From the NCBI GenBank assembly GCA_016779205.1, contig JADHOC010000009.1:62001-126000 (forward strand): a DNA stretch of 64,000 bases, read 5' to 3'. How positions within the stretch are numbered: the first letter of the stretch is position 1; each line of letters opens with the position of its first letter. The notes under the pieces are model-generated. The model had not been told where the DNA came from, searched no databases, and saw only the letters and a list, made by a program, of their open reading frames with translations. Source of the stretch: Planctomycetota bacterium. Its GTDB lineage: Bacteria > Planctomycetota > UBA1135 > GCA-002686595. This document shows positions 23,923 to 28,851 of this stretch, piece by piece. A program made the position numbers and the translations under genes.

Positions 23923-25311
23923 TCAGCGCGGGCCCGCTGGAGGCGAGCCGCCGGGGGGCGGGGTGGGCCGCCGCGCCCCGGGCGGCGTCCCGCCGAGGAA
24001 CACCCCGACCAGCTCCCGGTCGCCCCGCAGAACGAGCGTTCCGTTCCAGCCCGCAATCTTCCCCCACATGCGCTTGCGCTCCTTGGGGGGGCTCTTGAAC
24101 ACGTTGGCCGTGACGACCTGCTGGTAGCTCTCGGGCGAGGCGACGCAGAGCCTGAGGATGCCGCTCATCCCGTCCTGGATCAGGAGGTACGGCCCCACCT
24201 GGATCATGTGTCCGCGGGCGAAGTACGGATCACGCCCTGTGGACCACTGTTCCTCGCCTTCGAGGTTGAAGCACCGCAGCCCCCCCTGGCCACGACGGAG
24301 GCGCGAGATGTTCGTGTTCTCGTTGGCGAGGAGGTAGATGTGCTCCCCGACCACCACGGGCGGGTGGAGTTGTGAGCCCTTCTCGAGGTGGAACTCCTCG
24401 GTGATCCCGAAGGCGTCGGCGCCGGTACGCGCGACTCGCAGCAGGGTGGTGCCTCCCGCGTAGCCCCCCGTGATCACGAAGCGGCTCCCGTCCACCGCCA
24501 CTGGAGGCGGGACGGGCACGTTGGTGAGCATCGTCTCGTGCTGCCAGCGGAGCTCACCGGTGCTGGGGTCGAGGGCGCTGACGAGCACCGGCGCAGGGCT
24601 GTTCTCGCCGGCGCCCTGGGCGTCGCATGAGAGGAAGAGCAGCAGCTCCTCCCCGAGGAGCGGCATCAGGACCGGCTGGGACTGACTGGTGCCGAGGGCC
24701 GGGGTCCTCCAGCGGACGTCGCCCGTGACCTGGTCGAGGGCCACCAGTCCGACCTCTTCGCCCAGCGCGGGCAGGATCACGAGCCCGCCGTGGAGGAGGG
24801 GGTCTGCGGAGTAGCCGAAGTCGGGCATGGATCCGCCGAGGTCGTCCACCAGGTGGCGCTTCCAGCGCGCGCTGCGGCTCGCGCGCTCGACGCAGTGCAC
24901 CGTGCCGAACCCGCTGCAGAGGAAGGCGAACCGTTCGTTCACGGCGGGCGCCGTCCGGGAGCCGGCGGATTGGAGTCGGCCAGGCTCGGCGTAGCTGAAG
25001 GTCCACAGGACCGTGCCGTCGAGCACGTCGATCACCCGCAGTGTGTCCCCGACCCCGATCTCCCGGTCGAGGACGAAGGCCTTGCGGTCGAAGACGTCGG
25101 CGCCGCCGTAGCCCGGCTCGAGGGGGACGCTCCAGGCCGCAGAGAGGTCCGCGCTGGCCCGGCCGTAGCCATCGGCGAGTCGCTGGTCCTCAACGTAGTC
25201 GGACTCCGGCGGCGCCAGGGCCTCCAGGACCTCTCGCCGGTGGGGCCAGGATGCCGCGGCGCCGAGTGCGGCGAGCGCCGTGAGCGCAAGGAGGGTGCGT
25301 CGGGAGAGCAT
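23923..25311 (-). CDS. Exported PQQ-like beta-propeller protein
   Basis: A 462-residue protein with an N-terminal signal/anchor (RRTLLALTALAALGAAAS) and PQQ-like propeller blades: FDRKAFVLDREIGVGDTLRV followed by IDVLDGTVLWTFSY, FLCSGFGTVHCVERASRSAR, LVALDQVTGDVRWRTPALG, SALDPSTGELRWQHETML, HIYLLANENTNISRL and LRCFNLEGEEQWSTGRDPY. These are the D-x-x-T/D-G-x-x-x-W strands of PQQ-type blades. Without the cofactor-site residues it is more likely a BamB-like or scaffold propeller than a dehydrogenase. The C-terminus is Pro/Gly-rich. It diverges from the selenoprotein-like gene at 25533 and is convergent with the GH17 gene. Confidence 0.8.
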   Translation of the reverse strand: MLSRRTLLALTALAALGAAASWPHRREVLEALAPPESDYVEDQRLADGYGRASADLSAAWSVPLEPGYGGADVFDRKAFVLDREIGVGDTLRVIDVLDGTVLWTFSYAEPGRLQSAGSRTAPAVNERFAFLCSGFGTVHCVERASRSARWKRHLVDDLGGSMPDFGYSADPLLHGGLVILPALGEEVGLVALDQVTGDVRWRTPALGTSQSQPVLMPLLGEELLLFLSCDAQGAGENSPAPVLVSALDPSTGELRWQHETMLTNVPVPPPVAVDGSRFVITGGYAGGTTLLRVARTGADAFGITEEFHLEKGSQLHPPVVVGEHIYLLANENTNISRLRRGQGGLRCFNLEGEEQWSTGRDPYFARGHMIQVGPYLLIQDGMSGILRLCVASPESYQQVVTANVFKSPPKERKRMWGKIAGWNGTLVLRGDRELVGVFLGGTPPGARRPTPPPGGSPPAGPR

Positions 25312-25349
25312 GCGGGGCGGGGGAGGCGGCGCCCATGGTAAGGCGCGGC

Positions 25350-25375
25350 GCCGTGGCTTCGAGCGCGGCCACGGC
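25350..25375. other. 8-bp perfect hairpin in the PQQ/thioredoxin intergenic region
   Basis: GCCGTGGC (25350-25357) and GCCACGGC (25368-25375) pair exactly around a 10-base loop, between the divergent PQQ-propeller and double-TGA thioredoxin genes. It could be an operator or part of the propeller gene's leader. No further evidence. Confidence 0.3.
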
Positions 25376-25532
25376 TTCCTGGGGGAATGGGTGAACCCGG
25401 GTACGGCCTCGGGTCGGCTCCCGTTGGCCTCCGGGCGGACTCGCGCCGAATCCTAGGGCCTGTCCTCCGAGTCCGAGTAGGCTCGAACAGCCTCTTCATG
25501 TTCTGCGACCGTCGCGCTGCGACCCCCTCCCC

Positions 25533-26843
25533 ATGAAACGACCGACGCTCCTCGCTGCGCTCTTGCTGGCCTCGGCGCCCTCGCTCCTCGCGAGCGGAGA
25601 CTTCCCCCGAGAGAAGCCGAACCCCGCCAAGGCCGCCCTCGAGGGCAAGGCGCCGCCTGAACTCCAGGTCGACGGCTGGATGAACACAGGCGGTGCGCCC
25701 ATGGACTGGGCCTCCCTCAAGGGGAAGGTGGTGGTGCTCGACTTCTGGGGTACCTGGTGAGGCCCCTGTCGTGGCGCGGTGCCGGGTCTCAAGGACCTGG
25801 CAGCGCGCTACGGGGACCAGGGTCTGGTCCTCATCGGTGTGCACTCGGCGAACGGTGGCGAGAAAATGGCCAGCTTCGTCAAGGAGCAGGGCATCGACTA
25901 CCCCGTGGCCATTGATCGGGCGGGCAAGCCCACGGTGAGCGCGTTCGCTGTGGACTCCTTCCCGGACTACTACATCGTGGACCGGGCGGGGAACGTTCGG
26001 GTGGCGGACCTCCCGAACAGGGCGCTCGAAGCGACGGTCCAGGCGCTCCTGGCTGAGCCTGTGCCGGCCGCGCTCCCGGCGGAGCTGGCCGAGGCATCCG
26101 AGCGCGCCACCCGCAAGGACAAGCGGCTGCTCGTGCTCCTCGGCACCGACGATGACCGAGCGGCGTTCAACAAGCTCTCCCGCCTCGACCGCGCCCTGCG
26201 CCGGGAGCTCAGCAATGAGTACGAGACGGTCCCCGCGCCCCTGGGTGGCTCCCTCGCGGTGGCCCTGGGCGTGACCGCCACGGAGCCCACCGCGATCGCC
26301 CTCGATGCCGGCGGCGCCCCCCTGGGCTCGATCGCCATGGGGGGGCTGGACAGGGAGCGGCTCTGGGCGTTCGCGCGGGAGCACAAGGTGGCCCCTGGGG
26401 ACGCGGAGACCATCCTCGCAGGCGCGCTGGCCCAGGCGACCAAGGAGAAGAAGCGGGTCCTGGTGCACCTCGGCGCGCCCTGGTGAAGCTGGTGCTTCAA
26501 GCTCGAGGAGTTCCTCGGGCGCAAGGGGGTCAAGGGCCCCATGGATCGGGACTACGTCACGGTCAAGATCGACGTGGAGCGCGACGCCAACGGTGAGGCC
26601 GTGGCCAAGCGCCTGCGGGGTGAGCGTCGCGGGGGGATCCCCTGGTTGGTCATCCTCGACGCGGAGGGCAAGGAGCTCGTGAGCAGCGACGCGCCCACGG
26701 GGAACATCGGCTGCCCGGTTCAGCCAGAGGAGGTGGCCTGGTTCACGGAGATGATCCGGCGCAGCGCGATCCGGCTGGAGGCCCCGGACGTGGCGGCGAT
26801 CGAAGCGGAGCTCGAGGCCTACGCCGTTTCTTTCAGGCGCTGA
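25533..26843 (+). CDS. Exported thioredoxin-fold protein with two predicted selenocysteines (UxxC, UxxC)
   Basis: One frame of 437 codons with two in-frame TGAs (25758-25760, 26484-26486), read here as selenocysteine. Residues 1-21 are a signal peptide. About 38-165 is a TlpA-like thioredoxin domain: VVVLDFWGTW, Sec76-Gly-Pro-Cys79, and the cis-Pro loop SFPDYYIVD. About 185-290 looks like a degenerate thioredoxin fold without cysteines. About 295-410 is a thioredoxin_7-like domain: VLVHLGAPW, Sec318-Ser-Trp-Cys321, and cis-Pro loop GGIPWLVILD. Both TGAs occupy the first Cys of CxxC, and homology continues without frameshift on both sides. It would act as an oxidoreductase outside the cytoplasm. 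TAGGCT at 25478-25483 is a possible -10. The alternatives (pseudogene, Cys-inserting UGA tRNA) are discussed in the findings. Ordinary gene finders would split it into three. Confidence 0.88.
25758..25797 (+). promoter_or_regulatory. Sec76 UGA with candidate bacterial SECIS 1
   Basis: After the TGA, GGU(G)CC at 25778-25783 pairs with GGACC at 25793-25797, with G25781 bulged, around a 9-base loop GGGUCUCAA. There are 23 bases between UGA and loop. A G in the first two loop positions and 16-37 bases from the UGA are the usual bacterial rules. The arrangement GGU-bulge-NN / loop with GGUCU / NNACC recalls the E. coli fdhF element. Drawn by hand, not folded by program. Confidence 0.6.
26484..26520 (+). 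promoter_or_regulatory. Sec318 UGA with candidate bacterial SECIS 2
   Basis: GCUCGAGG (26501-26508) pairs with CCUCGGGC (26513-26520), 8 pairs with one G-U, around the tetraloop AGUU. There are 22 bases between UGA and loop, and G is the second loop base. A second, overlapping hairpin, UGAAGC/GCUUCA (26484-26499), includes the UGA itself and might compete. Drawn by hand. Confidence 0.6.
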
Positions 26844-26868
26844 TGGGCGACGGGCGTCGAGTCCTTCC

Positions 26869-26891
26869 CCCTCGCCCGCGCTGGGCGAGGG
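26869..26891 (+). terminator. U-less hairpin after the selenoprotein gene
   Basis: CCCTCGCCC (26869-26877) and its complement (26883-26891) form a 9-bp stem with a 5-base loop, 26 bases after the stop and before the next gene's -10 box. No T run follows. Together with the promoter at 26918 it suggests the two genes are separate transcripts. Confidence 0.45.
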
Positions 26892-26917
26892 CGAGGGGCC
26901 CGGTTCACCGCCGCGGT

Positions 26918-26929
26918 TAGGCTGGTGGA
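26918..26929 (+). promoter_or_regulatory. Putative leaderless -10 box for the sulfatase gene
   Basis: TAGGCT (26918-26923), 6 bases before the ATG at 26930. No clear -35. Confidence 0.45.
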
Positions 26930-28351
26930 ATGATCCAAGTGACCTTGCTGGCCTTCATCGCGGCGGTGCCATGCCCACCGTCGGCCGCTTTCTCCACGGT
27001 CTCCCCCCTCGAGGGCGAGCGAACGCCGGTCGAAGGTGACCGTCCGCCCAGCCTCGTGGTGATCCTCGCCGATGACCTCGGCTGGGGGGATGTCGGGTGC
27101 CAGGGGCAGGAGAAGATCCTGACCCCGCGAATCGACCGCATGGCCGCGGAGGGCATGCGCTTCTCGGCGGGCTACGCGGGTTCGACGGTCTGCGCGCCGA
27201 GCCGCTCCGTGCTCATGACCGGGCTCCACGCGGGGCACACCCGGGTGCGTGGCAATCGCCGGGTCCCCCTGAGGGATGAGGACCTGACCGTGGCGGAGCT
27301 GCTCCTCGCCGAGGGGTATCGCACCGCCCTCTTCGGGAAGTGGGGGCTAGGCAACGCGGGGAGCAGCGGGCATCCCGTTCGCCAGGGCTTCGAGCGGTTC
27401 TTCGGCTACTCGGACCAGCTGCACGCCCACAACTCGTACCCCACCCACCTCTGGGACGGGGAGGAGCGGGTAGAGCTCTCCAACGTGGTGCCGGGGGAGG
27501 GCAAGTGGGGCCAGGGCAAGGCCAGCGAGCGTCACGACTGGGCGCCGGGCCGGATCCACCGGGAGGCCATGGGCTGGCTCCGTGCAGTGCCCAGGGAGGA
27601 GCCCTTCTTCCTCTACCTCGCCAGCACCGTGCCCCACGCCAACAACGAGGCCGGCTCCGACGGCATGGAGGTGCCGGACGTCGGCGTCTACGGGGACCGC
27701 CCCTGGCCGGAGCGTCAGCGCCAGCACGCCGCCATGGTCTCGGCCCTCGACGGCCAGGTCGGAGAGGTGCTGGACACCCTCGTGGCCATGGGGCGGGCGG
27801 AGGACACCCTGGTCCTCTTCCTCTCGGACAACGGTCCCCACCGTGAGGGGGGCAACGACCCGGACTTCGCGGATTCCAACGGGCCCTTCCGGGGGATCAA
27901 GCGCTCGCTCACCGAGGGCGGGCTTCGGGTGCCCTTCATCGCATGGTGGCCGGGGGTGGTCCCGGCGGCCTCCGTGGAGGAGGCGCCGGTGCACTTCCAG
28001 GACCTCTTCGCCACCGCCGGCGCCCTGGCGGGGGCCGAGGTTCCTGCGGGGCTCGACTCGCGCAACCTGCTGCCCACCCTGAAGGGGGCGGGCACACCCC
28101 CGGCGGCGCCCCTCTACTGGGAGTTTCACGAGCGCGGGTCCGCCGAGGCGGTGCGCTTTGGCCGCTGGAAGGCGATCCGGTCCCCGATGCAGACGGGGGG
28201 CGTCCAGCTCTACGACCTCGACGCGGACCCGGGCGAGGCCGTGGACCTCGCCCGTAACCCGGACCAGGCCGAGCGGGTCGCCGCCGCCATGCAGCTGATG
28301 GATGGGGCCCACGTGCCCTCGACGGACTTCAAGACGCCGTCCGAGCGCTGA
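26930..28351 (+). CDS. Arylsulfatase (canonical CAPSR motif)
   Basis: A 473-residue sulfatase with a signal peptide (MIQVTLLAFIAAVPCPPSAA). Motifs in order: LVVILADDLGWGDVGCQG (metal ligands), GSTVCAPSRSVLMTG (C-x-P-S-R, Cys converted to formylglycine), FGKWGLGNAGSSGHP, and TLVLFLSDNGPHREGGNDP. The C-terminal region ends with YWEFHERGSAEAVRFGRWKA and LYDLDADPGEAVDLA, typical of formylglycine sulfatases. It would cleave sulfate esters from glycans outside the cytoplasm; the exact substrate is unknown. No maturase gene is in the window. Downstream it is convergent with a small lipoprotein gene, 17 bases away. Confidence 0.92.
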   Translation: MIQVTLLAFIAAVPCPPSAAFSTVSPLEGERTPVEGDRPPSLVVILADDLGWGDVGCQGQEKILTPRIDRMAAEGMRFSAGYAGSTVCAPSRSVLMTGLHAGHTRVRGNRRVPLRDEDLTVAELLLAEGYRTALFGKWGLGNAGSSGHPVRQGFERFFGYSDQLHAHNSYPTHLWDGEERVELSNVVPGEGKWGQGKASERHDWAPGRIHREAMGWLRAVPREEPFFLYLASTVPHANNEAGSDGMEVPDVGVYGDRPWPERQRQHAAMVSALDGQVGEVLDTLVAMGRAEDTLVLFLSDNGPHREGGNDPDFADSNGPFRGIKRSLTEGGLRVPFIAWWPGVVPAASVEEAPVHFQDLFATAGALAGAEVPAGLDSRNLLPTLKGAGTPPAAPLYWEFHERGSAEAVRFGRWKAIRSPMQTGGVQLYDLDADPGEAVDLARNPDQAERVAAAMQLMDGAHVPSTDFKTPSER

Positions 28352-28368
28352 CCGAGCGCCCCGCGGCC

Positions 28369-28851
28369 TCAGAGCTTGGCGATGGAGGTGGCCGCGAGGC
28401 GGGTGTTGCCCGCCTCGTCGATGTGCAGCGTCCCCTTCACGCAGACCGCGGTGAGGTGGTCGAGCCCGCGGGCCCCCTTGAGGCCCCAGGCGGCGGGGAG
28501 GTCGCCGTCGAGGAACTCCACGTTGATGGTCGCGGCGGCGACGTCGGAGGGGTCCTCGCAGCAGAAGTCCCAGGGCGTGGGGCACTGATCCGTGCACGGG
28601 GGCAAGGAGCTGTCCACCAGGCGGAAGGTGGCGAGCTCGCCGAAGTCCTGGACCTGGCCCTTCACGACGACGACGCTGCCGCTGGGGCTCTGCTTCGCCG
28701 ACAGCACCCCCACGGCGTCCGCCATCGGGCCCTCGACCCAGAAGGAGTCGGGCATGGCGGGGGCCGCCAGGTCCACGGGGGCGGTCTCGCTGGAACAGCT
28801 GGCGCTGGCGAGAAGGACGACGAGGGCGGCGGTGACTTGGATGAGTTTCAT
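28369..28851 (-). CDS. Small Cys-containing lipoprotein
   Basis: A 160-residue protein with a lipoprotein signal (VVLLASASC). The mature part has a DFGELATFRLVDSSLP strand, then a cysteine cluster PPCTDQCPTPWDFCCEDP, and a C-terminal beta region (ATINVEFLDGD ... VCVKGTLHIDEAGN). The fold looks OB-like (VVVVKGQVQDFGELATFRLV, then a strand-rich end), and the Cys cluster could bind metal or form disulfides. I know this type only as a planctomycete lipoprotein of unknown function. Convergent with the sulfatase gene. No operon partner. Confidence 0.65.
   Translation of the reverse strand: MKLIQVTAALVVLLASASCSSETAPVDLAAPAMPDSFWVEGPMADAVGVLSAKQSPSGSVVVVKGQVQDFGELATFRLVDSSLPPCTDQCPTPWDFCCEDPSDVAAATINVEFLDGDLPAAWGLKGARGLDHLTAVCVKGTLHIDEAGNTRLAATSIAKL

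Follow-up and report, generated by a model that had tools for sequence, protein, structure and literature searches.

The stretch analysed here, 64,000 nucleotides of contig JADHOC010000009.1 (positions 62,001 to 126,000) from the Planctomycetota bacterium assembly GCA_016779205.1 and referred to as the window, carries on its forward strand a gene (25533..26843) for a 436-residue thioredoxin-fold protein whose frame contains two UGA codons, both of which are predicted to encode selenocysteine (Sec, U). The frame runs from an ATG at 25533 to a terminal TGA at 26841-26843 and the gene is supported by homologues. Besides the terminator, the only in-frame stops are the TGA codons at 25758-25760 (UGA 1, residue 76) and 26484-26486 (UGA 2, residue 318), which agrees with the claim of a first-pass annotation that a single frame is interrupted at these two places. 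UGA 1 takes the first position of a WUGPC motif and UGA 2 that of a WUSWC motif, while the second cysteine of both motifs is present (Cys79 at 25767-25769 and Cys321 at 26493-26495); the frame thus bears out that TGA replaces the first Cys of W-x-G-P-C and W-x-S-W-C and leaves the second intact. Overall, the comparisons of sequences described below point to a real and conserved double-Sec gene that is probably functional.

The protein starts with a hydrophobic stretch (residues 1-22, 25533..25598), recognised by eye and modelled with a predicted local distance difference test score below 50, which is a likely signal peptide. Fold 1 (residues 46-173, 25668..26051) is a thioredoxin fold of the TlpA/ResA/redoxin type according to Pfam, the structure model and PDB matches. 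Fold 2 (residues 183-283, 26079..26381) is seen in the structure model as a DsbD-gamma/DsbH-like thioredoxin fold without redox motif, and fold 3 (residues 291-411, 26403..26765) is of the Thioredoxin_7 type in both Pfam and the model. Thioredoxin-type homology was said to cross both TGAs, and indeed the Pfam Redoxin match (66.6 bits, cut-off 26.6; residues 50-160) spans UGA 1 and the Thioredoxin_7 match (PF13899, 53 bits, cut-off 27; residues 294-377) spans UGA 2. The earlier description as a fusion of two redox domains holds for the two motif-bearing folds, but it did not include the motif-less middle fold of the model (approximately residues 183-283). A cis-proline loop had been assigned to each domain as well; P144 and P370 are invariant in a 10-sequence alignment (A2) and we take them to be the likely cis-prolines. 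Three more specific identities were rejected, namely ResA proper (NF002854, 71.7 bits versus a cut-off of 170), DsbH (NF043050, 25.3 bits versus 190) and the rhodanese/DsbD fusion selenoprotein TsoB (NF045694, 46.4 bits versus 805, over residues 298-382 only).

Conservation of the two UGA codons in relatives

We searched 154 genomes of the order, and a class-wide search comprised the same 154 genomes. The profile of the protein matches in 72 of them at E 1e-40, and the double UGA occurs in at least 14, the own genome included, a lower bound that considers only the best loci. Ten of these genomes have the three-fold arrangement (G000, G001, G002, G004, G007, G008, G021, G083, G099, and G102), whereas four have the double UGA without the middle fold (G055, G106, G146, and G153); G106 sits on a very long branch and may represent an independent fusion. 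Both codons remain TGA even in relatives with only 48-49% identity, as would be expected if, as had been argued, chance did not produce both TGAs, and these relatives show no decay at the two sites. Four contig-database records (L021-L024, 80-92% identity, one titled Planctomycetota bacterium) likewise have both TGAs and no other stop; they were kept out of the count as probable conspecifics of four of the 154 genomes, and a fifth match of that search (L025, 29 residues, 48%) was excluded. Among five close orthologues the ratio of nonsynonymous to synonymous substitution rates (dN/dS) is 0.22, 0.18, 0.16, 0.17, and 0.23 over five successive segments set by the UGAs and folds, and purifying selection therefore persists 3' of each UGA.

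The distinct matched stretches contain 72 in-frame TGAs, with 36 at codon 318, 34 at codon 76 and only two elsewhere (in L056 and L053), the one in L056 looking like the ordinary stop of that gene. The codon of the second Cys is never TGA among these 72. Cysteine forms number six at site 1 and 27 at site 2. For the Sec/Cys comparison at residue 318 we used 65 rows from 99 loci (L026-L088, L110-L145) after removal of duplicates, of rows that did not cover both residue 318 and residue 394, of low-scoring rows, of those with a different letter at 318, and of the spurious locus L054. A homologue with Cys at both sites (CGPC and CGWC), for which the first-pass annotation had advised a search, is P0002 from a Planctomycetota metagenome-assembled genome, with 42% identity over 95% of the length. 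The 154 genomes yielded no full-length member with Cys at both sites, P0002 coming from another Planctomycetota genome. A 17-protein tree places P0002 together with G018, G097, and G099 in a cluster nested within the Sec forms (support 98/93). From this position, the Cys form of P0002 and likewise the spoilt second motifs of G018 and G097 seem to be derived states. In G098 (L071) the match covers fold 1 and the middle fold only, and the remainder is out of frame or lost.

Four proteins of 242-244 residues in the protein database (P0007, P0009, P0011, and P0014) start just past site 1 and extend as far as the Trp that precedes site 2; from their boundaries they are likely fragments of further double-UGA genes, and such proteins are thus probably missed by annotation. 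At residue 394 (26712-26714, within NIGCP), 34 of the 36 Sec forms of fold 3 have a Cys, Gly or Ala, whereas a Phe, Tyr or His occupies this position in 22 of the 27 Cys forms. Co-evolution of this residue with Sec was considered and rejected, as the tree needs four Sec/Cys changes, which leaves one to four independent pairs, and the pattern is inseparable from shared descent.

RNA hairpins after the two UGA codons

Candidate bacterial selenocysteine insertion sequences (bSECIS) were judged by a published rule, which asks for a loop of 3-9 nt, a stem of 4-16 bp, a G in the first two loop positions, a distance of 16-37 nt and a minimum free energy of up to -7.5 (PMC13188914). The SECIS-like hairpin after UGA 2 (26501..26520, forward strand) has an 8-bp stem (GCUCGAGG/CCUCGGGC) and the loop AGUU, lies 22 nt from the UGA and passes the rule at -13.1 kcal/mol. 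The rule is satisfied by 22 of 23 site 2 sequences, with 5.2 expected from synonymous recoding, for which the pools were drawn from the same loci as the Sec/Cys comparison. The stretch after UGA 2 is the least variable of the gene, as none of its 11 informative codon columns varies in the five orthologues, compared to 149 of 294 gene-wide (p 0.0005). Across the 23 homologous hairpins (21 distinct) 92.9% of the cells pair, against 31-58% in slid-register controls, and four pairs have changes on both sides, a number reached in none of 500 shuffles; in L067 and L068 both arms are altered and the stem is preserved. A covariance model of this hairpin (R1) scores 65.1 bits on the gene itself and 24.3 bits on the runner-up of the own genome; this search does not count selenoproteins, because only 150 of 10847 first-look candidates were scored.

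Of the 36 Sec forms, 31 have the hairpin core GAGGAGUUCCUC and 32 have the residues EEF, whereas none of the 27 Cys forms has either. As the tree needs only four Sec/Cys changes, this signature does not stand for many independent events, and it cannot be told whether the string is linked with Sec itself or with shared descent. Four related proteins with tandem Thioredoxin_7 domains (L040, L041, L042, and L046) combine a CxxC in their first domain with a UxxC in their second; the site 2 hairpin is shared by L040 and L042, and its core is absent from L041 and L046.

After UGA 1, a hairpin with a 10-bp stem and the loop CAA (25780..25802, forward strand, 29 nt from the UGA) is a candidate SECIS without the loop G. 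None of 300 synonymous recodings is as stable as the window sequence (z -5.2), and the copy of this hairpin in G008 satisfies the whole rule. Taken over the homologues, folding relative to synonymous recoding, again with pools from those loci, gives mean z values of -1.72 (n=33) and -1.69 (n=23) for UGA sites, compared to -0.22 (n=6) and -0.09 (n=5) for Cys sites. An RNA signal at site 1 is thus probable, its type being unproven.

Selenocysteine machinery and other UGA-containing genes of the genome

The own genome assembly (4.3 Mb in 36 contigs, 90.5% complete) was searched for the machinery that the first-pass annotation had named as a check, and all of selA, selB, selD, and tRNA-Sec were found. 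Profile searches yielded one match each above the cut-off for SelA (457 bits, cut-off 268), SelB (326 bits, cut-off 242, with the SelB-specific winged helix SelB-wing_3), and SelD (320 bits, cut-off 125), together with one tRNA-Sec with the anticodon UCA (70.5 bits, gathering score 47), which ARAGORN also reports as tRNA-SeC(tca). In 14 control genomes the cut-offs were exceeded once for SelA, twice each for SelB and SelD, and five times for tRNA-Sec; since five of 14 controls pass, the tRNA-Sec score alone is weak evidence. SelA is above the cut-off in 60 of 61 genomes (the own genome and 60 relatives), the sole miss being a 67% complete assembly. The genome is thus very likely able to read UGA as Sec. 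Within the window itself no Rfam family reached its gathering score, and ARAGORN reported nothing there.

Other genes of the genome have in-frame UGA codons as well. The SelD gene (L018, contig C23) contains one TGA in its N-terminal part (DYAACAG-U-AAK), so that SelD is itself a predicted selenoprotein, and the hairpin of this gene satisfies the bSECIS rule. A DsbD gene (L089, protein P0116, contig C11), the sole DsbD_TM match of the genome, has a TGA (2563-2565, residue 762) where the C-terminal thioredoxin-type motif would have its first Cys (GHT-U-VVC), and the 8-bp hairpin with the loop GGUC that lies 3' of it satisfies the rule, too. In six more TlpA-type proteins (L056, L057, L058, L059, L060, and L062) a TGA takes the place of the first Cys of the motif. 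A single thioredoxin-like match, the short and TrxA-like L061, has Cys there.

Readings of the gene and comparison with known selenoproteins

Incorporation of Sec at both codons is predicted with high confidence from these comparisons, and we consider it nearly as probable that the product is one exported thiol-disulfide oxidoreductase chain with Sec at residues 76 and 318. Several observations speak against this assignment. The window hairpin after UGA 1 has the stem, the spacing and the energy (-15.9) of the bSECIS rule but not the loop G, L027 likewise fails the loop-G rule, and the whole rule is satisfied by only eight of 33 site 1 sequences (1.9 expected). RNAalifold found no common structure among these 33 sequences, and conservation of the codon columns 3' of UGA 1 is unexceptional, with variation in 5 of 13 (p 0.26). 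At site 2, sliding the register by +2 also yields four pairs changed on both sides, although only 55% of the cells are then paired. Compared to dinucleotide shuffles the hairpins of SelD and DsbD are unremarkable (z -0.6 and -0.8), the fold rank of the UGA windows is high in some orthologues only, and fold energy alone is a weak mark. Furthermore, two three-fold members keep UGA 1 and have a spoilt second motif (G018 with SGWS, G097 with QDKC), three of the nine genomes of the genus have no match at E 1e-40, and no redox link was seen among the neighbouring genes (23923-28851). The missing loop G does not exclude a selenoprotein, since a subset of bacterial selenoprotein genes or SECIS elements fails the bSECIS rule, as stated in PMC13188914.

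If the gene were decaying and the TGAs were due to nonsense mutation or faulty sequencing, for which one could point to the fragmented and incomplete assembly, it would hardly be the case that at least 14 genomes, with identities as low as 48-49%, share TGA at the same two codons, nor would the frame be free of other stops and under a dN/dS of 0.16-0.23 around both sites; we regard the chance of this as negligible. Homologues with Cys at these positions would also fit a changed code, in which the lineage reads UGA as Cys or Trp instead of Sec. However, TGA never occupies the second Cys in matched stretches, 70 of the 72 TGAs fall on the two sites, the gene uses TGA as its own terminator, and the genome has the whole Sec machinery with a UGA-containing SelD, which makes a changed code very improbable. 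It might further be that translation mostly stops at the UGAs, so that truncated proteins, formed depending on selenium and covering either the first 75 residues or folds 1 and 2, are the functional ones, or that internal starts give separate polypeptides. Two serial UGAs would multiply the readthrough losses, GTG and ATG starts exist 3' of the UGAs (25779 and 26541), and the relatives with spoilt second motif would fit such a model. On the other hand, the constraint on residues after UGA 2 equals that before it, 33 of the 36 fold 3 sequences with Sec preserve the AGUU core of the hairpin, and separate internal-start products would be without the active site of the motif concerned because the starts fall past the second Cys of each motif. 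Shorter products are thus improbable, yet less so than a changed code. Less remote, albeit still unlikely, is a double-Sec peroxidase or small-molecule reductase with independently acting domains in place of a protein disulfide reductase: fold 1 also matches AhpC-TSA above the Pfam cut-off (61.3 bits), and its structural matches include peroxiredoxins and the iodothyronine deiodinase core.

For the double-Sec oxidoreductase a working scheme can be drawn up. Each UGA would have its own hairpin, which would recruit SelB with Sec-tRNA, and the chain would be exported through the N-terminal signal. Fold 3 (Thioredoxin_7/DsbD-gamma-like, U318-C321) would take electrons, probably from the DsbD of the own genome, in which UGA likewise replaces the first motif Cys of the C-terminal thioredoxin domain. 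Fold 3 would then hand them to fold 1 (TlpA/ResA-like, U76-C79), which would reduce substrate disulfides, while the motif-less middle fold might serve as a spacer or docking domain. We propose this relay from fold 3 to fold 1 tentatively, with somewhat more against it than for it; as the second motif is spoilt in G018 and G097, fold 3 need not act as a redox domain in every member, and the case for an obligatory relay is the weaker for it. It is more doubtful still that the whole extracytoplasmic reducing chain of the lineage depends on selenium, leading from the UVVC motif of DsbD via the Sec of fold 3 to that of fold 1 within one molecule, with all TlpA-type reductases found in the genome using Sec and the TrxA-like protein keeping Cys. 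If the double-Sec reading of the gene is right, it represents a conserved two-Sec family with UGAs in two different thioredoxin active sites and points to a lineage in which the majority of the exported thiol-reducing proteins identified in this analysis use selenium. Site 2 would also be a clear example from nature of an RNA signal that seems to influence the protein sequence, as the hairpin core goes together with EEF in Sec forms only.

Compared to structurally known proteins, the DipZ C-terminal region, ResA, and CcmG/DsbE (PDB 2hyx, 1st9, and 2b1k) have Cys where Sec is predicted here. The protein differs from DsbD-gamma, DsbH, and Thioredoxin_7 proteins in that UGA is first in the motif of fold 3, the motif is lost in fold 2 and both are fused to a TlpA domain. 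To our knowledge, the DipZ C-terminal region, ResA, and CcmG/DsbE do not have a second and third thioredoxin fold of this kind. P0002 corresponds to the present protein in its whole length and fold order and differs by CGPC and CGWC.

Among described selenoproteins, 119 prokaryotic families are tabulated in PMC13188914, including single-Sec TlpA/redoxin families and several families with two or three Sec. As far as it was covered, this inventory holds no fusion of a redoxin/TlpA UxxC domain with a Thioredoxin_7 UxxC domain, and the fusion was not found in the parts consulted of PMC9312934, PMC1794560, and PMC2398784 either, novelty being judged on open-licence literature only. Of the tabulated families (PMC13188914), UGC-containing TlpA, Redoxin family protein (PF08534, UxxC), and Thiol-disulfide isomerase-like (cd02966, UxxC) resemble fold 1 in having a redoxin/TlpA fold with Sec first in the motif. 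Unlike the present protein, these single-Sec families have one Sec each and no fused Thioredoxin_7 domain with a second UxxC. TsoB, MbdU, arsenite methyltransferase/AhpD, Prx-like UxxU, and FmdB-like UxxU are multi-Sec polypeptides, as here, and the Trx7/PDZ protein (CxxU, one Sec) shares a Sec-bearing Trx7 domain; going by their table entries, all of these differ in domains or Sec position (PMC13188914). Among the multi-Sec families TsoB (NF045694) is the nearest through its DsbD-like part. With the exception of TsoB (rhodanese/DsbD fusion-like), no entry in the consulted table is named DsbD, and the entry "Thiol:disulfide interchange protein" (PF13098) might be related (PMC13188914). The first-pass annotation had regarded two Sec codons in such a fusion as not described for a planctomycete. 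Both sel genes and selenoproteins have been reported from planctomycetes (PMC4807772), so that the phylum is already known to use Sec and only the double-Sec fusion would be new.

The gene is flanked upstream by a PQQ_2/BamB-like protein on the opposite strand and downstream by a sulfatase (473 aa) and an unknown 160-aa protein, an arrangement that is partly present in close relatives. A scan of the window for TGA codons flanked on both sides by coding-like composition returned five codons, including UGA 1 and UGA 2; the remaining three (2881, 17356, and 32233) possibly lie in antisense frames. Just 5' of the start codon there is an inverted repeat, GTCGC-NNN-GCGAC (25511-25523), which is kept in all five close orthologues and could be a regulatory site or a leader hairpin.
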